This document shows positions 14,590-44,027 of a DNA stretch of 64,000 bases, piece after piece. Position 1 is the stretch's first letter; each line of letters starts with the position of its first letter. The stretch comes from Candidatus Poseidoniaceae archaeon (lineage in GTDB: Archaea > Thermoplasmatota > Poseidoniia > Poseidoniales > Poseidoniaceae): assembly GCA_030747695.1 (NCBI GenBank), contig JASLKG010000001.1, forward strand, positions 62,001 through 126,000, in the 5' to 3' direction. Both the position numbers and the translations under genes were made by a program. The notes under the pieces were generated by a model that saw nothing but the letters and a program-made list of their open reading frames with translations, searched no databases and was not told the DNA's origin.

Positions 14590-15774
14590 TTATCGTCGCA
14601 GTCTTGCAGGAATAAGGGTTTCAAGACGTCTTGAAACATCACTAGGTAACATATGCGGCATAGAAATGTGCTGTGTTCTTCCCCTTCCATCATCCAACTG
14701 ATCAGTTCTTGTTTCAATGATCTGATTTTGCATCATACGTTTGATATGTTTCCAAATAGTCGTATGCCCTTTTGGAGATTGATTATATTCTTCACATACC
14801 ACTTGGTAGAGCTTTGAAGCCTCACCACTTGTGACAAATTCTTGTCGTTTCAATCTTCTACAAATTCCCAATAGAAGTAACATACAATGTACTGGAAGAC
14901 CTTCAATATCCAAAGAGTCGACATTTGAGGGCAATGTAACAACAGTACTCTGTACATCTTCTGGAAGAATTTGGCTTCTTCCTGAAACTTCAGCTCTTTT
15001 TGCTGCACCTTCTATCAATTCAATTACTTGTCTTGCGTCACCAGAAGGTGCCGCTGCCTGAGATGCCAATTTGATAATTTCTTCAGTAAAAGATCCTTTC
15101 ACTAAACCAATATCAGATCGTTGCATTGCAATTTCAAAAAGACCCGCTTCATCATATTTTTTCATACGTAAATGATTAGTCCTACCCATCCTAGAAATAA
15201 CTGCATTTTCTAAGAGATCTAGAACTTGCTCTTGTGAAATCATGATTAGGGAAAGAGTTCCTCTGCGGGCAGTATCTTCGTCTATACGTAGCAATCTATA
15301 GATTAGATCGTCACCAGATTTACGTAATAGGTGATCGACTTCATCTAGAACTACAATTAAATGAGAATTATCACTTGACATCATTCTTCTGAGCGATGTT
15401 AGCAGTTCACTAACCCCCAACCCTCTATCAGGATGACCGGGGTCTAAATCTTGGATAATCTTTTGAATCGCTCGAGATGAAGTTGAAGCATTTCTGCAGT
15501 TAACATGTACGCTACGTATGTTTCTCTTGTCTGAAAGATGTTTTACAATGTCTATGCAAAATCGCTTTACTAATGCAGTTTTTCCAGAACCAACAGGACC
15601 TGTTACAACTGCACGACTTGCTCCATCTTTATGGCCTAAGCCGATGAACATCCCTGCAAGTTGTTTTTGATCATCATTCCTTCCAACTAATTCGTCGGGT
15701 ATATAGTCAAAACCAAATATTTCTGGCTGTGAAAGAACCAATCCCGCACCAATGCGGTCTAAGTAAGAACTCAT
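14590..15774 (-). CDS. cdc6: Orc1/Cdc6 replication initiator
   Basis: Binds archaeal origins and loads MCM. The 394-residue protein has Walker A GPVGSGKT (59-66), Walker B VVLDEVD (141-147), a sensor 1 region around LSLIMISQ and the sensor 2 motif SGDARQVIEL. A C-terminal winged helix (KGHTTIWKHIKRMMQNQIIETR) completes the Orc1 layout at the usual length. The start ATG is at 15774. Upstream there is only a 92-bp gap before dph2. It shows no clear origin-recognition box repeats, so the origin served by this protein may lie elsewhere. It sits with translation genes on the minus strand. Confidence 0.93.
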   Translation of the reverse strand: MSSYLDRIGAGLVLSQPEIFGFDYIPDELVGRNDDQKQLAGMFIGLGHKDGASRAVVTGPVGSGKTALVKRFCIDIVKHLSDKRNIRSVHVNCRNASTSSRAIQKIIQDLDPGHPDRGLGVSELLTSLRRMMSSDNSHLIVVLDEVDHLLRKSGDDLIYRLLRIDEDTARRGTLSLIMISQEQVLDLLENAVISRMGRTNHLRMKKYDEAGLFEIAMQRSDIGLVKGSFTEEIIKLASQAAAPSGDARQVIELIEGAAKRAEVSGRSQILPEDVQSTVVTLPSNVDSLDIEGLPVHCMLLLLGICRRLKRQEFVTSGEASKLYQVVCEEYNQSPKGHTTIWKHIKRMMQNQIIETRTDQLDDGRGRTQHISMPHMLPSDVSRRLETLIPARLRR

Positions 15775-15866: not shown

Positions 15867-16970
15867 TCATGGTATTTCATCGAATTGATAGCCCGTTTCC
15901 CATTTCTTCTCACCTAACGAAACTTCTAATTCAAATGGTGTTACAAGTGGCTTGCCATATTTCACGGCATCATCTATTGCAATTCTTGGACATGCAGTAT
16001 TAACAAAAGCGTCAACTGGATAGAAATCAATTAATTCAGGACCTACATGTTCAAGAGCAAGTAAATATCCCTTTTTCCCATGTTTTTTCAACAAACGTTT
16101 CAGTTTAAGGGCAAGGCTTCTGCGCATTTGGCCCGGTTTTTCTCCAATTAAGATTGCAAATGTATCAGCATCTTGAATCGACATAATCAATCCAAAACGT
16201 TGACGCAATATCCGTTCAATTCTTTCAAAACTCATTTCTGAGGCTTCATCTGTATAAGGATCTAGCATAGCCAATGGCTTCCCTGTATGTAATACTAAAC
16301 CGATTGGATGGAAGTCGCCGCTTCCAAGGAACATATAATGCCCGATTTCATCATCATCGCCAGAATAGTTGCATCCTAAAACTTGACCCGGGAATGTCAA
16401 TCTAGCTCCTCCTACGGGTACTTCAACTTCAAATCCAGCATCTTCCAAATATTTCTTGTATTCAAAGATGAGATGTAAATGTTGTATTGATCCAACTAAA
16501 CCGAGTTTTGTGCCCTTTAGAGGAGATATGCGCCCTACAGCATCTTGAAACCGCTCTTGTGCTTCTTCCGTACTAAGTGCAATTTCACCTTCATCTAATC
16601 TTTCTTTAGCAATAGAGCGATGTTGCTCAAGTATTGGTAACACAGCAGTAATCTCCGGCCGCCCATCATATGTAACATCAATAAATTGAGTTGGCATTCC
16701 TGAATCAATATTCATCTGAGAATGACCCATATGCGCTACTAATTCAACACCCATCATTTTCATTTTGTCATGTACTAAATCACAAGCACCATAACATGGG
16801 TCTGCTGCAAGCACAACTTTAGCACTAGTCCCATCTTCAATTTCATCCATCATTTCCAAAGCTTGCATCTTCAAGCCTTCAGGAACCTGTAAAGCAATTA
16901 GCCGATGGTCATGAGATTTGATTCTCTTAATCAATTCTTCCAGTTGAAAATCATGCCGATTTAAATCCAT
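15867..16970 (-). CDS. dph2: Diphthamide synthase Dph2 (3-amino-3-carboxypropyl-histidine synthase)
   Basis: The radical-SAM-like 4Fe-4S enzyme transfers the 3-amino-3-carboxypropyl group of SAM to a histidine of EF-2, the first step of diphthamide synthesis. The 367-residue protein has the three cluster cysteines of the family, one per domain: Cys59 in DPCYGACD, Cys200 in VLGCNYS and Cys327 in NTACPRIAIDD. The N-terminal LQVPEGLK is also typical. A segment of about 40 residues between domains 1 and 2 (AKERLDEGEIALSTEEAQER) is longer than in the Pyrococcus protein. It is followed upstream by the GcvH-like gene with a 17-bp gap. Confidence 0.93.
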   Translation of the reverse strand: MDLNRHDFQLEELIKRIKSHDHRLIALQVPEGLKMQALEMMDEIEDGTSAKVVLAADPCYGACDLVHDKMKMMGVELVAHMGHSQMNIDSGMPTQFIDVTYDGRPEITAVLPILEQHRSIAKERLDEGEIALSTEEAQERFQDAVGRISPLKGTKLGLVGSIQHLHLIFEYKKYLEDAGFEVEVPVGGARLTFPGQVLGCNYSGDDDEIGHYMFLGSGDFHPIGLVLHTGKPLAMLDPYTDEASEMSFERIERILRQRFGLIMSIQDADTFAILIGEKPGQMRRSLALKLKRLLKKHGKKGYLLALEHVGPELIDFYPVDAFVNTACPRIAIDDAVKYGKPLVTPFELEVSLGEKKWETGYQFDEIP

Positions 16971-20157: not shown

Positions 20158-21642
20158 TTAGAAAATAACACTTGCTTCAAGGACAGGTCGTTTAAGGCTT
20201 GGTGAGAAATCAACAAGTGAAGCATTTACAGAAATCGTGTCTCCTTCGCGATGATTCATAATCTCCTCATCAAGAGATGGAGGGATTTTAACTAATCCAG
20301 AATACGGCCCACCATCAATTAATCCAGTAATAGTTTGACCTCCTTTGTATTCTACAGAACCAATTAGTGTCCGCTCCATTTTTTCTATTTTGACCATTAC
20401 GGCATAGCTACCGTGTTGAGAATTTATGATCTCCTTCCTTTCTGAATATAGACGCGAATTTTCAAGATCAAGAATAATCCTTTCAAGTTCAGTATCTATA
20501 TCTGAAGTCAGCACTAGTTCTTCTTCCTCTTGAATTACTGCCTCTTCTTCAGGTTCTTCTTCCTCTTGAATTACTGCCTCTTCTTCAGGTTCTTCTTCAG
20601 TAAGCTCAATTTGTTCTTTTAATGCTACAACGAATTCCTCATAAGAGATTGTGCCATCATTGTTTTTGTCTGCACCTGATATCATTTGCTGAATTTGATC
20701 TTTAGTAACTAGCCCTGCCCCTATTGTGGGTAGGAAAATTCCTATTTCATCAACTGAAATAGATCCATCACCATCCAAATCTAGCATATTAAATGCCATT
20801 CTATAGTTCTCTTCGGTTCTGAGATGGTCTCCCACTATCGAAAAGAAGTTCTCTAATTTAGGATCAGATACAGAGGTTATTACCTCATCTATCTCATTGA
20901 ATACTTCCTCAACAGATGAATCAAAATTATCGATTTTATCATCAACTGCTTTTGCTATATTTTCGGCTGCAGCCTTAACCTCGTCTTTTGCAGCCGAGAT
21001 GGACTTAGTTGCATCTTTTGCCCTTATTATGGCTTCATCTTTTGCCTTCATTACAGCAGCTTCCCTTAGTTGTGATGCCGCATCAGCAGCAATACCTGCT
21101 CCTCCCAAGACTGCAGCAGTCCCTCCAACAACCGCACCCAATTTCAATGCCTTTGAGGCTAAATCAGATGATTTTAATCCGGAAATCTTTTGCAAATCAG
21201 TACCGCCAGAACCAACACCATATGTTTTTGCAAGAACGGAGATTTCATTCGAAGCAAGATCTTCTAAAGGTTTACCATCTCTTACCTCTTTGATTACTCG
21301 TCCTAGTATTTGATTTGCTTCATTATTATGGATTTTTGCAGCAGTTTGTTGTAAACCATCTGAATTTTCCCAGCCCCATGTTCCATCGTTTTTTTGTTTC
21401 AAAACCATACCCCCATCTGCCTTATTGAATAAATTTTGATTTGATTGTGCAAATCCCATTACACCCGATTGAGATATTCCTATTATGCCCATTATTGCTC
21501 CAATTGGAATCATGCAGCAACCCAAAAAATTCGTAACATCTGTACCAATACCGAAAATTAGAAACATTCCACTTATGACGCAAAATAAGCCAAGATCTTT
21601 CAGTGGTTTTCCTGGAAGTTTCTCAATATCACCTGTGCCCAC
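20158..21642 (-). CDS. Membrane protein with paired EF-hands and tandem acidic repeat
   Basis: A 494-residue protein. Two N-terminal membrane segments (LGLFCVISGMFLIFGIG and IPIGAIMGIIGIS) are followed by a soluble region with a Gly/Ala-rich hydrophobic stretch around 165-190 and Lys/Asp/Ala-rich helices. Two canonical EF-hand loops come next: DLDGDGSISVDE and DKNNDGTISYEE. A perfect double copy of EEPEEEAVIQEE and a C-terminal beta-rich domain of about 110 residues finish the protein. The start is a GTG at 21642 preceded by GAGGG. The EF-hands should bind calcium; the role is unknown. It could be a calcium-responsive membrane sensor. Confidence 0.75.
   Translation of the reverse strand: MGTGDIEKLPGKPLKDLGLFCVISGMFLIFGIGTDVTNFLGCCMIPIGAIMGIIGISQSGVMGFAQSNQNLFNKADGGMVLKQKNDGTWGWENSDGLQQTAAKIHNNEANQILGRVIKEVRDGKPLEDLASNEISVLAKTYGVGSGGTDLQKISGLKSSDLASKALKLGAVVGGTAAVLGGAGIAADAASQLREAAVMKAKDEAIIRAKDATKSISAAKDEVKAAAENIAKAVDDKIDNFDSSVEEVFNEIDEVITSVSDPKLENFFSIVGDHLRTEENYRMAFNMLDLDGDGSISVDEIGIFLPTIGAGLVTKDQIQQMISGADKNNDGTISYEEFVVALKEQIELTEEEPEEEAVIQEEEEPEEEAVIQEEEELVLTSDIDTELERIILDLENSRLYSERKEIINSQHGSYAVMVKIEKMERTLIGSVEYKGGQTITGLIDGGPYSGLVKIPPSLDEEIMNHREGDTISVNASLVDFSPSLKRPVLEASVIF
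20521..20595 (-). repeat. 36-bp tandem repeat inside the EF-hand gene
   Basis: Two in-frame copies with a period of 36 bp encode EEPEEEAVIQEE twice between the EF-hands and the C-terminal domain. The nucleotide copies are essentially identical, which points to recent duplication and possible length variation between strains. Confidence 0.8.
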
Positions 21643-21697: not shown

Positions 21698-22951
21698 TTA
21701 TGGCCACTGCATTTTTGGCCATTCATTAGGGTCGCCATGCTGCCAAGGTATTGTGCATAGAACAGCCTCAATTTCCGATTCATGTTTTAAATTCCTTTCA
21801 ATTTGTATTCTGTGCAACCATTCCTTTAATCTTCCAAGTTTATTTCCTGGTTCTAGATTAGTACGTTTCATTAGCCATTTGCCATCAATTATACATTTAA
21901 CATTAACAGGATAATCCAAAGATTTTTCCATCATAGAAACATCCCCATTCTTTGATTTTATTAATGATATATGGGTTTTAACTTCATCGCCAATAACTGT
22001 TCTATAGATTCTTAATTCATTATTAGAAGGGATGTTATCAATCAAAAATCTAAGATGCTTGGTACGTTTTATATCGTCATTAGACATCTTTAATTTCTTT
22101 AATGTAGATGTCAACTCCTTAATCGAATGCGATTGGAAAAGCAGTGCTAGTCTTACATGAGTATCACATGGGGTTTTGTCAATTTCTTCGAATGCATTAA
22201 TGGGGAAACTGGTGCCAGTTAATGTGCCAAGGATTCCATCCCTATACATGCGAGAAAGTACTGTAGATGCATTTTCTCCTGATATTATCTGACGTAATTC
22301 AGGCCAAATTCGTTCGGCTGAAGACATAAGTATCATCGATCTATTATCTATTAATGCAGCACTTAGTGCTTCATTTGGGGGCCAAATACCCGAATTACCT
22401 CTATCCATAAACCGGTAAGCTCTAATCACTCTCAAACCATCCTCAGATAATCTATGCTGTGGATCTCCTACTGCACAAAGTAATCCTCTTTTCAAGTCTT
22501 CTTCGCCACCATACGGGTCATGTAGTAATTTTCTTGCACAATCATATGCCATGGAATTCATGGTGAAATCTCTTCGCGATAAATCGATGGATAAACTATC
22601 TCCCCATTCGACTTCATCAGGCCTTCTTCCATCTCCATAACTGGACTCAGTTCGCAGTGTAGTTACTTGAAAATATGAATCTCCACTGCAGACGGTTACA
22701 GTTCCGAATTGTATTCCAGTAGGTATGGTATTCTCAAAAGATTCAACAATTTCTTCGGGTACAGCAGTAGTACATATGTCAAAATCAGTTGGATTCTTCC
22801 CTAACAATGCGTCTCTGATAGCACCTCCAACAACCCATACTCCGTAACCTCCTGCTGCAAGAACATTAACTACATGCGCTAAATCATCATTGATTTCAAT
22901 CAAATTACTTCGGGGGTTACCTGGAACATCTGCAAGTAAACCCTCTTCCAT
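21698..22951 (-). CDS. cca: CCA tRNA nucleotidyltransferase, class II (bacterial-type)
   Basis: Adds or repairs the 3'-CCA end of tRNAs. The 417-residue protein has the class II signatures: GGAIRDALLG (42-51) and DFDICT (56-61) with the catalytic Asp pair, RTESSYGDGRRPDEVEW, RRDFTMN (125-131) and EDGLRVIRAYRF (169-180), the EDxxR amino-acid template. Archaea normally carry the unrelated class I enzyme, so this looks like acquisition from bacteria. A poly(A) polymerase of the same family is the main alternative. It lacks an HD domain. Divergent from the ParB-like gene across 44 bp. Confidence 0.9.
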   Translation of the reverse strand: MEEGLLADVPGNPRSNLIEINDDLAHVVNVLAAGGYGVWVVGGAIRDALLGKNPTDFDICTTAVPEEIVESFENTIPTGIQFGTVTVCSGDSYFQVTTLRTESSYGDGRRPDEVEWGDSLSIDLSRRDFTMNSMAYDCARKLLHDPYGGEEDLKRGLLCAVGDPQHRLSEDGLRVIRAYRFMDRGNSGIWPPNEALSAALIDNRSMILMSSAERIWPELRQIISGENASTVLSRMYRDGILGTLTGTSFPINAFEEIDKTPCDTHVRLALLFQSHSIKELTSTLKKLKMSNDDIKRTKHLRFLIDNIPSNNELRIYRTVIGDEVKTHISLIKSKNGDVSMMEKSLDYPVNVKCIIDGKWLMKRTNLEPGNKLGRLKEWLHRIQIERNLKHESEIEAVLCTIPWQHGDPNEWPKMQWP

Positions 22952-22995: not shown

Positions 22996-23433
22996 ATGGT
23001 TCGAACATACATGGCTTGGGACTCCGAGGACGTACAATTGGTACCAATCTCTTGGCTAAAACCTCATGAAGAAATAAATGTGAGGGGAAGAGATAAACTT
23101 CTCGACATGACAAAAAGATGGAAAGGTTACACTAAGCCCCTACTTGTAGATTCGGAAACAGGTACCATCTTGGATGGGCACCATCGCTATTCAATAGGCC
23201 TAGTATTGAATCTAAGGCGCCTTCCTGCCATATGTGTTAATTATCTTCAAGATGAAAATGTCTCAGTTTCATTATGGCCAGGTTCTGATCTCGAATCAAT
23301 TACAAAGGACGATGTAATCAATATGGCACTCTCTGGAAAGGTATATCCTCCAAAAACAAGTAAACATGAATTGAAAAATTATCTTCCGCCAATACATGTT
23401 TTACTAGATATATTATTGAAAGAATCTGATTAA
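22996..23433 (+). CDS. ParB-fold protein, likely free-serine kinase (SerK/SbnI-like)
   Basis: A 145-residue single-domain ParB/sulfiredoxin-fold protein. It has LKPHEEI with Glu25/26, DGHHR (60-64) and the closing PPKTSKH (118-124). This set matches the archaeal SerK and staphylococcal SbnI group, which phosphorylate free L-serine to O-phosphoserine for cysteine synthesis, better than plasmid ParB, which has GxxR and a long HTH region. Assignment to serine kinase is from family memory and is moderate. It overlaps the M61 peptidase gene by 4 bp (TTAA shared by both stops). Confidence 0.7.
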   Translation: MVRTYMAWDSEDVQLVPISWLKPHEEINVRGRDKLLDMTKRWKGYTKPLLVDSETGTILDGHHRYSIGLVLNLRRLPAICVNYLQDENVSVSLWPGSDLESITKDDVINMALSGKVYPPKTSKHELKNYLPPIHVLLDILLKESD

Positions 23434-29320: not shown

Positions 29321-30673
29321 TCATTTTGGAGGCTCCATGGACCACCATATTAGTAATTCTTCCAAATTTTGTGGCACAGGACATTCAGCGTGTCCACTTG
29401 AAATCAAACTTAATCTTTCAATGACATGTTGAATCGCTTTTCTGATAGAAGGAGAAGGCTTCTTTTCATCATTGCCTACAAGAATCTCATTTAATGCAAA
29501 TTTCCATTCTCGATTAGGATTTGCTCTACGCCAACTCGCCAAAGCAGTTCTTAACGGCCACATTGCAAGACAAAGTCTCCCATAGCCAAGTCTACTTTTA
29601 CGTAGTTTGAACATTTGTGCTTCTGCAAATGGCACATGACTTTGTTGTCGATGTATCCATCTTTCCTGTTCTAACCATTTAACCATCCTTTGAGTATGTC
29701 TCTTTGTTACAGATCTAGCAGGCCCTAGTTGACCATGTAATTTTGGAACATCTGTAGTATCAGTTAGGGAAAGAGTACCCAAAACTGCCCACGAAGCATG
29801 CGCTATAGGCCTTGAAGGAACATCAGATTCCCTCGCTCTCTTTTCATCCCATTCTTCCTCTGCCAGGTGCATCCAATGTGCAGGAGAATATCCATCTAAC
29901 CAATCTTCTAATAATGAAATATGTTTTACAGGAGCTCCCGGTAATCTTTGTTGTGTTTGTACGCCTGAAGTAAGCCTCTTCAGTAGATGCCTGTCCACTT
30001 CATCTAAATCTACATTGAGAGGTTCAGGTCGTCGATTGAAAAATTTCCTAACCGCCAATGAAAGTTCCTTTTCAAGTTCATCTAAACCACTTTCATTCAA
30101 AATCGGCCCAACTATGCATGATTTGTTAAATGGAGGAGGGGATTCTAACTCGCCAGACAAAATACCTGCAAAACCTGCACGAATCTTCGTTTGTATCTCC
30201 GTAGTTTCGAAATATTCTTGTTTTTGACCTGCCATCCTCAAAGTACCTGATTGTATCCTTTTCATTGCTTTGGCAGGGTCACAATCAATCCAAATAACAA
30301 GATCAGGTATCATTGCTGCAGAATTCATAGATGCAACTTGTTCGAGACCAAGTTCTCCAACAACTCCTTGATAGACAAGAGAAGAATGTATGTTGCGATC
30401 AGAAATTACAAGATCACCATTTTGTAATTTCGGTTTAATCCAAGTATGAGAATGGTCTATTCTATCAGCAGCAAAAAGACCAGCTTCTTGCAAAGGAGTA
30501 TGGTCTCCTTTGCTTACAGCCTTCAAAGCTAGTTTACCCAATTCACTATGTCTCCTTGGTTCATGTGTGACATGAACATTAGGGAAAGGTAAGCGTTTGA
30601 CTATTGAAGTCAGCAATCTGACAGCCTCGCCCTTGCCAGATCCGTCGCCTCCTTCGACGGTAATGAGGTACAT
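29321..30673 (-). CDS. Thymidylate kinase with long C-terminal extension
   Basis: Thymidylate kinase makes dTDP from dTMP. Residues 1 to about 215 show the fold: VEGGDGSGKGE (6-16), THEPR in place of the DRx/REPGGT segment, SDRNIHSSLVYQG (91-103) and a LID-like region with RIQSGTLRMAGQKQEYFE. The P-loop position normally Thr or Ser after Lys is Gly15, which is unusual. A second region of about 235 residues, not seen in ordinary Tmk (about 210), is rich in Trp and Arg (WAVLGTLSLTDTTD, RLCLAMWPLRTALASWRR) with no family I recognise. Start ATG 30673. It is 3 bp downstream of a membrane-protein gene. Confidence 0.82.
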   Translation of the reverse strand: MYLITVEGGDGSGKGEAVRLLTSIVKRLPFPNVHVTHEPRRHSELGKLALKAVSKGDHTPLQEAGLFAADRIDHSHTWIKPKLQNGDLVISDRNIHSSLVYQGVVGELGLEQVASMNSAAMIPDLVIWIDCDPAKAMKRIQSGTLRMAGQKQEYFETTEIQTKIRAGFAGILSGELESPPPFNKSCIVGPILNESGLDELEKELSLAVRKFFNRRPEPLNVDLDEVDRHLLKRLTSGVQTQQRLPGAPVKHISLLEDWLDGYSPAHWMHLAEEEWDEKRARESDVPSRPIAHASWAVLGTLSLTDTTDVPKLHGQLGPARSVTKRHTQRMVKWLEQERWIHRQQSHVPFAEAQMFKLRKSRLGYGRLCLAMWPLRTALASWRRANPNREWKFALNEILVGNDEKKPSPSIRKAIQHVIERLSLISSGHAECPVPQNLEELLIWWSMEPPK

Positions 30674-30676
30674 GCT

Positions 30677-31537
30677 CTAATTATCCTCCTCTTCCCCTTG
30701 ATCTGTAAATTCATCTTTGTTCATGACCAACAATATCATTCCTGTCAAAATTAATGCTGGTCCAAAGATAATCAATCCTCTGCTAAATAGTGCGACCCAA
30801 CAAAGCTTTTGCGTTCTGCGATAATTCTTTGCACGCCTAATTTCAAATGATGCATGAGCTCCTACAAGTGCACAACCTATTGTGAACAAACCTTCCACTG
30901 TTGCAAGGGCAACAGCATTTTCCATAGACCAGCCACCTGATTTATTTCTAGTTTCTTCATATTCTGGTGGCACCTCTTCACCTATATTCATAGTAAAAAC
31001 CATCTCAATTTTTTCCGTTGTGAAGTTTCTTATTACAGAAGTATAATTCGTTTTACTAAGCGTTATTTGATGATCCTTTACAGTAACACCATTCATTCCA
31101 AATCTTCCATCACTATTACTCTCCACAGATTGTATGAGTATTCCAGTTTCCAAATCTATTAATTCAATGTTGACGCCTTCTATGGCGTAACCATCACCAT
31201 CAATGATTAACCCTCGTACATCTAAAACTTCATTTTCTTTCAACAAAGTAGAATTTAGTAAATCAGATGGATTTCCTTGCAAGATTAGAGTTCCAGAAAC
31301 CATGCCCATTAGGGCACCAATCATTACCAGAACAGAAGCAAGTTTCCTACGTCTTTCACCATCACTTATTTCTTCAGATTCTAATTCAATAAATTCAATT
31401 TCACGAGAAGGAGCAACAACTACAATTTCATCTTCAGCAGCCTTTTCTCTTCGACGCTTATCCATTCTCGATTGGAATACCTTGTCACGAACACGTTCTC
31501 GCAACGCTGCAAGCCTGTTCGCCTTTTCTTCAGTCAT
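30677..31537 (-). CDS. Membrane protein with carboxypeptidase-regulatory-like domain
   Basis: A 286-residue protein. A charged cytoplasmic N-terminus (about 60 residues) leads to a membrane helix (LASVLVMIGALMGMVSGTLIL). An outside domain shaped like a carboxypeptidase-regulatory beta sandwich follows (VRGLIIDGDGYAIEGVNIELID ... SNSDGRFGMNGV). Two more helices close the protein (ENAVALATVEGLFTIGCALVG and RGLIIFGPALILTGMILLV). ATG 31537 (MTEEK) is preferred over ATG 31546. It is downstream of the M28 peptidase and directly upstream of the thymidylate kinase; all three may be co-transcribed. Function unknown. Confidence 0.65.
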   Translation of the reverse strand: MTEEKANRLAALRERVRDKVFQSRMDKRRREKAAEDEIVVVAPSREIEFIELESEEISDGERRRKLASVLVMIGALMGMVSGTLILQGNPSDLLNSTLLKENEVLDVRGLIIDGDGYAIEGVNIELIDLETGILIQSVESNSDGRFGMNGVTVKDHQITLSKTNYTSVIRNFTTEKIEMVFTMNIGEEVPPEYEETRNKSGGWSMENAVALATVEGLFTIGCALVGAHASFEIRRAKNYRRTQKLCWVALFSRGLIIFGPALILTGMILLVMNKDEFTDQGEEEDN

Positions 31538-31579
31538 GAAAAGCACTCCGCTATTTGTACCCGAGGATGTGCGCGGATT

Positions 31580-32737
31580 TCACCCCTCCCCTTTATTATC
31601 CGCGAAAGAAGACCATACCACAATGGAACAAGCAATCATTGCAATGCCGAAAATAATTGAACCAATAATTGAATTTCCTTTTACAATTTCATCATCATCT
31701 TCGTTTATTTCAACACCAGTTTCTTCAGTAGTATTGTCAATTATTGTTTCATTTTCAGATATAATTTCTTGAGTTCTAATACCAATCCACGCATTAGTTA
31801 TCAATCCAGTTTCTACTAATTGACCAACTGTCTCTAAGGATTCGGCACTAACCTTGTCATGTGTGTCATTGTGAGTGTGCCAGTGCCCTTCAAAAGCCTC
31901 AGAACCTTCACCATATTTTATGTCTATAATATCAATCGACGGTATTCCTTTAGCCATTGCCCAGATATGGTCATCATAAACAGTCTCAGTATCGTTTGAA
32001 TCAAACGACTGATTGATGTTATGTCCACAACTATCCATATAATTAGCAACCTGAATTGTTCTATTCCATGCAGTTTGATTTCCTGGGTAGGAAGGAGAGA
32101 TTGTTAGAAAAGCATCACCTACCATATCTACAAGTATGAATGATTCTATCGATTCAGCTTCTTCTTCAGTCAAATTTTGTGCCCATGATCTTGCTCCTAA
32201 GAACGAGGGAGTAACTCCTTGGTCTTCACCATCTGTGAAAAATAGTGTAACGCTATGTGAAAGGTTCATTGCTGGAATGTGTCTTGATAATTCTAATAAT
32301 ACCGCAACACCACTAGCTCCATCATTAGCGCCAAGTATTGGTTCATCTCTCATACTTTCATTCGAATCCCTTTCGGCACGATCTCTAGTATCGTAATGTG
32401 CAGCCAAGTAAATTGAATTGTTGTATTCGTATGGGTTCCATGTGGCATAAAGATTTGTCAGTACCATCCCATCAGCATGGTGTGTACTTTCTGTTATTGA
32501 CCAACCAGTCAAATTTTCTTTGATAGATTGTCTTAGAGCCTGGCTAGCAACTGAGCCAGGAGTTCTTGGTCCTAAAGAAGTTTGATAGTATACGCTTTCA
32601 TTTGCAAGAGTTCCATTGAAACTAAGTTCATCTACAGTTGAACAGTCAGCCGAATCTATGACAAATTCACTTGATGAATGCATGGAAGGGATTAGGCATG
32701 CTGATAGCAGTATAATGACTATACAACTCCCCCTCAT
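31580..32737 (-). CDS. Secreted, membrane-anchored M28 peptidase
   Basis: A 385-residue zinc aminopeptidase-like protein of family M28. It has a short signal sequence (MRGSCIVIILLSACLIPSM), ligands His114 and Asp139 in AAHYDTR and GANDGASG, Glu171 in FFTDGEDQG, VDMVGD and HTHNDTHD. A C-terminal membrane helix (IIGSIIFGIAMIACSIVVWSSF) anchors it. It probably releases amino acids from peptides outside the cell; glutaminyl cyclase activity is an alternative in the same fold. ATG 32737 is preferred over GTG 32749 because a TATA element lies about 27 bp upstream of it, consistent with a leaderless mRNA. Confidence 0.85.
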   Translation of the reverse strand: MRGSCIVIILLSACLIPSMHSSSEFVIDSADCSTVDELSFNGTLANESVYYQTSLGPRTPGSVASQALRQSIKENLTGWSITESTHHADGMVLTNLYATWNPYEYNNSIYLAAHYDTRDRAERDSNESMRDEPILGANDGASGVAVLLELSRHIPAMNLSHSVTLFFTDGEDQGVTPSFLGARSWAQNLTEEEAESIESFILVDMVGDAFLTISPSYPGNQTAWNRTIQVANYMDSCGHNINQSFDSNDTETVYDDHIWAMAKGIPSIDIIDIKYGEGSEAFEGHWHTHNDTHDKVSAESLETVGQLVETGLITNAWIGIRTQEIISENETIIDNTTEETGVEINEDDDEIVKGNSIIGSIIFGIAMIACSIVVWSSFADNKGEG

Positions 32738-32758
32738 GTATGATGCCACGTCTACTGA

Positions 32759-32768
32759 CTCTTAAATA
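32759..32768 (-). promoter_or_regulatory. Putative TATA element for the M28 peptidase gene
   Basis: Read on the minus strand this is GGTATTTAAG, a good archaeal TATA-like box. Its centre is about 27 bp from the ATG at 32737, the spacing expected if transcription starts at the start codon. No Shine-Dalgarno site precedes that ATG. Confidence 0.4.
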
Positions 32769-32825
32769 CCTCATTTCAACTCGCTTATTTTGAACGCAGC
32801 ACTGCGATTCATTGGGGACTAGAAA

Positions 32826-35800
32826 ATGTCTGAACCACGCTCTACTAAAGCATACGCAATTGTTTTGATATTCTTGGTCTCTACATTGGCACCTTTTGTG
32901 AGTGCAGATGGCGATTCTCCACCCGGAGATGTAATAGAGAATTTCGAACCGGTATTTGGTGATATTAACCAGATGGTATATTCTGAAGCACACCCCTATA
33001 TGGTTCCTGATTCAGATGAAAAGTTGTACAGCGCAACTCGTTTAATGAAGAATGCATGGGTTGACCAAGGAATGCCGGGAGTCGATGTTTCGACATCTCC
33101 TCAAGCCCTTTCTACAAGTGGCAGAGCTTGCACTCCATACAGCACTGGGGATTCTTTGAATGTGCCAACTTCTGGAGGAAGTATTGATGTCACAGTAAAG
33201 AAAACCACTTCAACTGCTGCATTTATGGTGCAAGATGGAAGGACTTTATCATCAACCATATTGAATAATTGGGCAAGTACTTGGGATCAAACAGTATATC
33301 CTACCCTAATGTCATATTTTGGAAAGGATTATTTTGATGGAAGAGGAATTGCCGCTCCAGACGTAGACAATAATTGTCAGATTGAAGTTGTGATTTACGC
33401 TATTGATGGCGCATACAATACAGGAGGCTATTTCGCTCCGGGAATGTCATCATCCCGAGAAGCAATTTTTATCGATATTGACGATGCACCTCTTACTTGG
33501 TCGAAAGTAATACTTGCACATGAGTTGCAACATTTGTTACATAATGCTTTAGATCCTTATGAGAATCTTTGGATTGATGAAGGAGCTGCAGATATGGCAG
33601 CATTCCTTTGTTTCGGAGGTTCTTCCACACTATACGGGCACGTCAATGCTTGGACTGAGGCTTCAGAAACATCTGTAAGATGGTGGAATCAAAGGATTGC
33701 AGATTATGGAGGTGGATTCATTTTCTTATTGTATCTTGCAGATCACTTGGGAGGAGGCCCTGCAATTAGAAAATTAGTGCAAGATTCGGCTACTGGAGGG
33801 GTAGCAATTGAGAATTTAGCTAGGAATCCAATAGATGCTAATCCAGGTGTAATCGGAAGAAATTATATTGATATTTTCACAAATTTCACAATTGCTTCGA
33901 CATTGGACAGCGATCAGGGAATTTATGGATTATCAAATCTATACTTGACGCCTGTATGTGGTTCTAGTGATTTTTGTAGGATTCAACCTGCAGATACAAA
34001 TTCAGATTGGATGGCGCCTTGGACTTCTACAGGGAATTCTATAGAAGGATGGGGTGTACGTGTTTTCAAATTCATACCGGGGGGGGCAGCACCAGCACCA
34101 CTTACAATGAGATTCACAGGGGATCAAGTTGGCATGGATGGGGTAATTATGAGTAGAGCTTCTACAGATGGAACCTATACACGTTCTGATATCAATTTCA
34201 ATGGAGCTGTAGGTACTGCCTTAGTTCCAGGCTTTGGAAATGTTACAGATGAAATTTGGGCGATTACATGGTTTGCATCAAATAAAGGCGATTGTGATTA
34301 TACTTCTTGTGGAAGTTCTTACCCTCAAGGTATTATTGATGTTGAAGCAGCAAGGATTACTTCACCAGCAGAGTTGACGATGAATGGAAGTACGAGTAGC
34401 GACAGAGATGGAGATTCTTTGACTGACACTATACAATTAGGCTTTGATGTTTTATCAAATGCATTCTTTGAAGATTTAGATGTAACTATAGAAGCAAAAA
34501 ACAGTTCAGGAGTGATTGTAGACACTATTCAATCAAGAGTACAGGCAGGGGGGGGTTCTCCTGTAACCACGCAATTTTGGTTCACTTCACCATCTTCAGA
34601 ATTATATTCCTTTGATTTAACAATGAGAGATATGCTTGGTGATGTAATTGATTATGTACAATCAAGTCCTATCTATCTTGATAACATGGCTCCTGTGGCC
34701 AATTCAAGTATCGACCCAGTAGAAGCCCAGACTTGGGACAATATTCAATTCATGGGTGATGGATTCGATGCATGGGGATTATCATATGATAACAATACAC
34801 TTCCTAATCTAGATTTACCAGTTGCTTACGCTTGGGATTATAATGATGGTAACACTTCAAGCCTCAAGAGCCCAGTAAGATCGTTTACAGACGTAGGCCA
34901 ATACAATGTATCATTGAGAGTAAAAGATAGTGGAGGAACATGGTCCTTAACTGATATCAAGCAAATAAACATCACAGATTCTTCCGAACCAATCCCAGTG
35001 ATAACTGTGGCTGGACAAATCATTGAAGATAATTATACAATCTTGACTGGGCAGAGAATATTGTTTGATGCAAGCAGAACTTCTGACAATGTACCGATTT
35101 CACATCTAACTTTTACGTGGGATTGGGGCGATGGATCATTGGAAGGAGGTAAAGGATTATCTCAAGCTAATCATTTGTGGGCTGACGGATTAACTTGGGA
35201 AACTAGTTACAATCTTACACTTTGGATTTCAGATGGTGTTAATACGGTTAGTAAAGTAATTGAAATAATTGTAAGAAACCGTGCACCTGGTCAGATTTTT
35301 AATGATATGTTAACTATTGAAACATATACTCCACTAAGTTTGCCAGATGTCTTTGAAGACGTAGATGGTGATGTAGTAAGTTGGACATGGGCCTTCGAAG
35401 AAGGTGTAAATCTTGAAGGCGGTATTTTGGATAGAACCGATTTATTTGTAGATTTATTATCCAATGAACAAAATCCTATAGCTGCATGGAATAAAGAAGG
35501 TCTCAAAAATGTTAGTGTAACAGTAACTGATGATGATGGCAACGTTTCATCCACTCTAATTCTTGTAAATGTATTGAATCAACATCCAGTTGCACAATTT
35601 ACAGTTAGAGATAGCTCATCTGCTGGAAGTCCAAAAATTGATTTTAGATACGAAGATGGTGAAGTTGACGTTCCTTATACATATGATGGAAGGGAAAGTT
35701 ATGATCCAGATGGAACCAGTGGTGACTCAAGCGTTTTAGAATTCCAATGGGAGTTCTCAGATGGTATCCAGTCCAATAAGTCATTAGTTACTCACAACTT

Positions 35801-38925: not shown

Positions 38926-44027
<5,102 letters not shown>

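Follow-up and report, generated by a model that had tools for sequence, protein, structure and literature searches.

A class II CCA-adding enzyme of bacterial type, probably gained once, replaces the archaeal class I enzyme in the order Poseidoniales

The window analysed here, a stretch of 64,000 nucleotides from contig JASLKG010000001.1 (assembly GCA_030747695.1), belongs to a Poseidoniales (Marine Group II) archaeon whose 1.79-Mb assembly comprises 11 contigs and is 87% complete. A first-pass annotation had placed a bacterial-type class II CCA-adding enzyme at 21698–22951. These coordinates prove exact, with the gene (cca) lying on the minus strand; the plus strand of the same interval carries many stops. 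The features of the gene and of its divergent neighbour are:

21698–22951, minus strand: cca, class II CCA-adding tRNA nucleotidyltransferase (417 aa, ATG start, no internal stops)
22478–22840, minus strand: PolyA_pol head (catalytic) domain PF01743, residues 38–158 (Pfam match)
22811–22828, minus strand: GGAIRD, residues 42–47, motif A region
22769–22786, minus strand: DFDICT, residues 56–61, with D56 x D58
22610–22639, minus strand: flexible loop YGDGRRPDEV, residues 105–114 (from alignment; role according to PMC7014341)
22556–22576, minus strand: RRDFTMN, residues 126–132, motif B
22418–22444, minus strand: EDGLRVIRA, residues 170–178, motif D (EDxxR; role according to PMC7014341)
21794–21886, minus strand: C-terminal motif DGxWLMxxTxLxPGxxLGRLKxWLHRIQIER, residues 356–386, conserved across Poseidoniales
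22996–23433, plus strand: divergent SerK/ParB-fold-like neighbour, 145 aa

All four motifs on which the first-pass annotation had relied (GGAIRD, DFDICT, RRDFTMN and EDGLRVIRA) are in place, and the profile and PDB matches lie far above chance. Pfam assigns PolyA_pol (PF01743, 3.1e-34), with weak matches to PF13735, the C-terminal domain of tRNA nucleotidyltransferases, and to the RNA-binding domain of PolyA_pol. The closest NCBIfam equivalog is the CCA nucleotidyltransferase PRK13299 (NF009814, 1.3e-68), matched at 231.9 bits against an equivalog cut-off of 290 bits, and the best PDB sequence match is the CCA-adding enzyme 6ibp (2e-47); Pfam and NCBIfam return no class I match for the protein. 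Each of 47 Poseidoniales proteins carries GG..RD with a two-carboxylate motif A ([DE]xD), RRDFTxN motif B (small variation allowed), EDxxR (E170, D171 and R174 in the window protein) and the flexible loop. In the window protein this carboxylate pair takes its canonical form, D56 x D58, which, going by known class II structures, we take to be the metal-binding pair. Over 46 aligned proteins the catalytic and template residues are kept, the first carboxylate being Asp or Glu. In class II enzymes EDxxR acts as an amino-acid template for CTP/ATP, and the flexible loop is required for the CTP-to-ATP switch (PMC7014341). The first DxD aspartate is glutamate in 20/23 members of the window's genus (L002–L023 among the relatives), the window protein keeping Asp; the same substitution occurs in 3/24 proteins elsewhere in Poseidoniales and in 4/76 of the non-Poseidoniales sample.

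An AlphaFold model built from a 41-protein alignment (pLDDT 89.7, pTM 0.83) predicts a class II fold along the full length of the protein. In a Foldseek comparison with the PDB, each of the top 46 structures is either a class II tRNA nucleotidyltransferase or a bacterial poly(A) polymerase, with bacterial CCA-adding enzymes at the head (best 7otr, E 3e-20, whole length, 29% identity); the archaeal class I structure 2dvi compares with the model at E 0.44 and TM 0.18. Bacillota class II enzymes (Planococcus halocryophilus 6ibp/7otr, Geobacillus stearothermophilus 1miv) share the catalytic and template residues and the flexible loop with the Poseidoniales proteins, and their fold aligns over about 375 columns; the Poseidoniales proteins have no HD motif. 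The Poseidoniales enzymes differ from those of Bacillota in their archaeal host, their own C-terminal motif, a Trp for Tyr before VGG (46/46) and the Glu that, within the window's genus, mostly replaces the first metal Asp.

The setting is archaeal, as the first-pass annotation had held: the window also encodes Orc1/Cdc6 (14590–15774) and Dph2 (15867–16970), together with a Hel308-like helicase, an RPA-like protein and an archaellum-type ATPase. The 145-aa neighbour serves as a synteny marker and is not part of the enzyme; its similarity to SerK, an ADP-dependent serine kinase, is weak (8.4e-13, far below cut-off, covering 83 residues of a 244-position profile). GcvH-like, acyl-CoA dehydrogenase and M61 peptidase genes usually lie near the cca locus. 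Immediately downstream of cca in the window's genus is an EF-hand-pair protein (20158–21642, minus strand, in the window), which diverges rapidly (31–58% within the genus). Elsewhere in the window, a bacterial-type DNA gyrase B (39269–41218, plus strand) scores above its curated cut-off, and GC skew changes sign at about 30000–34000; a replication origin may lie near the Orc1/Cdc6 gene and this switch, seen in this one window.

Bacterial poly(A) polymerase I (PcnB) shares its nucleotidyltransferase head domain with CCA enzymes and with the Poseidoniales protein; the Pfam name is PolyA_pol, and the PcnB profile matches at 3e-40. The protein might then polyadenylate, with CCA addition done by another factor. 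The CCA profile matches far better, however (1.3e-68); the Martin–Keller signature of PAP I, [LIV][LIV]G[RK][RK]Fx[LIV]h[HQL][LIV] (PMC8208693), is missing from 47/47 Poseidoniales proteins, whose sequence neighbours are of CCA type; the best structures are CCA-adding enzymes; and no other CCA enzyme was found in a genome where 24/36 tRNA genes lack CCA. We regard this reading as highly improbable, and the poly(A)-polymerase placement that had been named beforehand as fatal to the original claim fails, tree and motifs both being of CCA type. Equally improbable is a partial activity, CC-adding or A-adding, completed by an unrecognised partner. Several bacteria do have split CC-/A-adding pairs, with loop loss producing the CC-adding member (PMC7014341), and full activity is not provable by sequence alone; but the loop lacking from those bacterial CC-adding enzymes is present in 47/47 Poseidoniales proteins, each Poseidoniales genome has one class II gene, and the tRNA genes require the addition of C as well as A. 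PAP or CC-only function is therefore unlikely. CCA is encoded in 12/36 tRNA genes of the window genome, and the other 24 end in only C or CC, or miss even C74. Since no second enzyme was found and these genes lack CCA, genome content suggests that the cca protein must supply both C and A.

The archaeal class I enzyme (PF09249, PF21133), whose fold is unrelated to class II, fills the same cellular role in other Thermoplasmatota, the sister order among them, and is missing in every Poseidoniales genome searched. The families labelled f1 (presumably Poseidoniaceae) and f2 make up the order Poseidoniales, as the names on public records of same-clade proteins indicate, and the sister order f3, whose genomes are small, is presumably Marine Group III (or Marine Group III-like). 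The window genome holds one class II gene and zero class I genes by two different class I profiles. Among 79 relatives from the order, 75 carry class II, spanning 21/21 genera, and none carries class I. In a sample of 390 Thermoplasmatota genomes, the 252 with class I include no Poseidoniales; of the 126 with class II, 123 are Poseidoniales (123/127), and the 3 others carry class I too. Of the 263 genomes outside Poseidoniales, the sister order included, 252 thus carry class I; the eight f3 genomes that the phylum search lists all carry it, and none of the eight carries class II. Two of the four Poseidoniales misses (G001, G038) have a class II gene cut by a contig end. Five order members with no class II match also gave no match to the neighbouring gene, in a search that had no positive control among its genomes; a missing neighbour is what would be expected if the locus were unassembled.

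The first-pass annotation had left two outcomes to a genome search for class I: replacement if it was missing, shared roles if both enzymes were present. The search found none, in the window genome, in 0/79 relatives and in 0/127 Poseidoniales, and the sister order has class I without class II; the replacement branch thus stands and the shared-roles branch falls for window genome and order alike. For shared work to persist, a class I enzyme would have to be present but too divergent or unassembled. These metagenome-assembled genomes (MAGs) are incomplete, and three other Thermoplasmatota do carry class I with a class II-like protein. Set against this, the second class I profile, built mainly from f3 sequences, matched two f3 controls at 1e-161 or better but gave no match, at E 0.1, in any of 30 Poseidoniales genomes, the single-contig G036 among them. 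Independently, for a set of 270 Poseidoniales MAGs, Rinke et al. 2019 (PMC6461757) name PF09249.6, a model of domain 2 of the class I enzyme, as one of 11 CheckM markers that none of these MAGs contains. Absence in the window genome alone would be weak, given its 87% completeness; the order-wide pattern and G036 (96%) carry the argument, and leave a hidden class I enzyme a very small chance, somewhat below that of the functional alternatives.

Phylogenetic trees (59 rows, mixture model, repeated with the catalytic and neck region alone) place the protein among bacterial CCA-type enzymes. Poseidoniales class II proteins, including ones recorded under Marine Group II euryarchaeote MED-G33 and Ca. 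Thalassarchaeaceae, form a single clade (100/100, stem 1.12) nested in bacterial diversity with 98/96 at the enclosing fork; the catalytic and neck tree again returns one clade (100/100), nested at 99/93. Full-length columns put this clade beside Bacillota (96/91), a placement that the catalytic and neck tree does not hold: there it falls within a Bacillota/Myxococcota/Spirochaetota group whose branching is not resolved, and a forced grouping of Poseidoniales with Bacilli is neither supported nor rejected (AU p 0.24). We accordingly do not name Bacillota as donor. Among plasmids and phages, only distant matches of bacterial type turned up, at roughly 28–45% identity. Transfer of cca between f1 and f2 was also considered and set aside: some f2 genera group with f1, yet monophyly of the two families is not rejected (AU p 0.38, 0.19), and within Poseidoniales the gene tree looks compatible with vertical descent. 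Three class II-like proteins with HD-type motifs, found in addition to class I in other Thermoplasmatota (L233 in G284, L234 in G372, L235 in G212), place elsewhere than the Poseidoniales clade; L234 sits on a 568-kb contig and may be a genuine separate acquisition.

Class II might instead be ancestral in archaea and survive only in Poseidoniales through differential loss, in keeping with the long stem branch and with trees that single out no donor phylum. The nesting inside bacterial CCA-type diversity in both trees argues against it, and because class I is held by nearly all Thermoplasmatota outside Poseidoniales, with the sister order among them, this history would need many parallel losses; we give it less weight still than a hidden class I gene. 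Contamination of the contig or bin, always to be suspected of a bacterial-type gene in a metagenome-type assembly and named beforehand as a way for the claim to fail, is excluded by a neighbourhood conserved across the order (the SerK/ParB-like gene adjoins cca in 49/50 Poseidoniales loci, in both f1 and f2), with Orc1/Cdc6 and Dph2 within about 8 kb, the GC of the cca region like the window's and the gene present in a single-contig relative.

Our preferred reading, held at a probability of about 0.92, is that cca encodes a full class II CCA-adding enzyme, the sole one here, acquired once from a bacterium by the Poseidoniales stem and replacing class I. We infer the catalytic activity and the direction and timing of the transfer. 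The simplest history would have one transfer from a bacterium into the Poseidoniales stem lineage after its split from f3, with class I then lost in Poseidoniales. By analogy with the bacterial enzymes, the cca protein most likely works as they do: one active site, with two carboxylates (D56 and D58) and metal ions, would build C, C and A onto the 3' end of the tRNA with no nucleic acid as template; residues E170, D171 and R174 would select CTP, and the flexible loop (residues 105–114) would then turn the pocket to ATP.

A review assigns class I to archaeal and class II to bacterial and eukaryotic CCA-adding enzymes (PMC3925840). This class rule is broken in both directions, class II gained and class I lost, by an entire order of archaea that are very abundant in the surface ocean. 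The case is a clean inter-domain replacement of an essential tRNA-facing enzyme, and the sister order with the old enzyme is a natural control. Early bacterial acquisitions have been described in Group II/III archaea, where 29.7% of genes are inferred to be bacterial in origin, including lineage-core early transfers (Deschamps et al. 2014, PMC4122925). The cca transfer would likewise be an early bacterial gain; the main text of that study has no mention of CCA enzymes, and here an essential tRNA-processing enzyme is displaced, in one order only. We found no report of class II in Marine Group II in the searchable literature (subscription papers and supplements excluded), and within that literature the prior record is one of absence only, the missing PF09249 (PMC6461757). 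The genes are probably already named as such by the automated annotation of public databases. The enzyme itself belongs to a known family, in which it forms a new archaeal clade; what is new is the replacement, which is order-wide and ancient.

One practical consequence concerns completeness scoring, in which COG1746 serves as an archaeal marker (PMC9258230): where class I markers (COG1746, PF09249) are used, Poseidoniales will always be scored as lacking a gene that has actually been replaced. Ten further core archaeal markers are absent from all 270 Poseidoniales MAGs (PMC6461757). Some of these may hide other replacements. Several of the ten are, we believe, translation markers, such as the eIF-5A, ValRS and L7Ae models.

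Encoded CCA varies across the genomes sampled, in counts that for some genomes come from partial tRNA samples. Two f1 genomes encode it in 12/36 and 13/40 tRNA genes (25/76 together), two f2 genomes in 23/27 and 24/25 (47/52), two f3 genomes in 38/42 and 25/26 (63/68), and two other Thermoplasmatota in 0/17 (G177, class I) and 9/16. A link between class II and CCA-less tRNA genes, suggested by a first sample (G000 and G036 versus G079), was broken on adding G058, G048, G081, G177 and G196: the class II f2 genomes encode CCA in about 90% of genes, and class I G177 in 0/17. In both f2 and f3 most tRNA genes encode CCA, as they probably did in the common ancestor, and encoded CCA may have made the swap easier. 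A fuller version of this idea, which we hold tentatively and think rather less than even odds, is that the swap was possible since the class ancestor mostly encoded CCA, leaving the archaeal enzyme mainly to repair and dispensable on the arrival of a bacterial one, and that f1, the family of the window genome, later lost encoded CCA and came to depend fully on the bacterial-type enzyme. The CCA-less tRNA genes of G000 and G036 (L061–L090, L243–L271, L302–L326, L354–L359) nearly always have C74 followed by T (CT or CCT); the same pattern appears in the class I genome G177 and may thus act as a signal for 3' processing.
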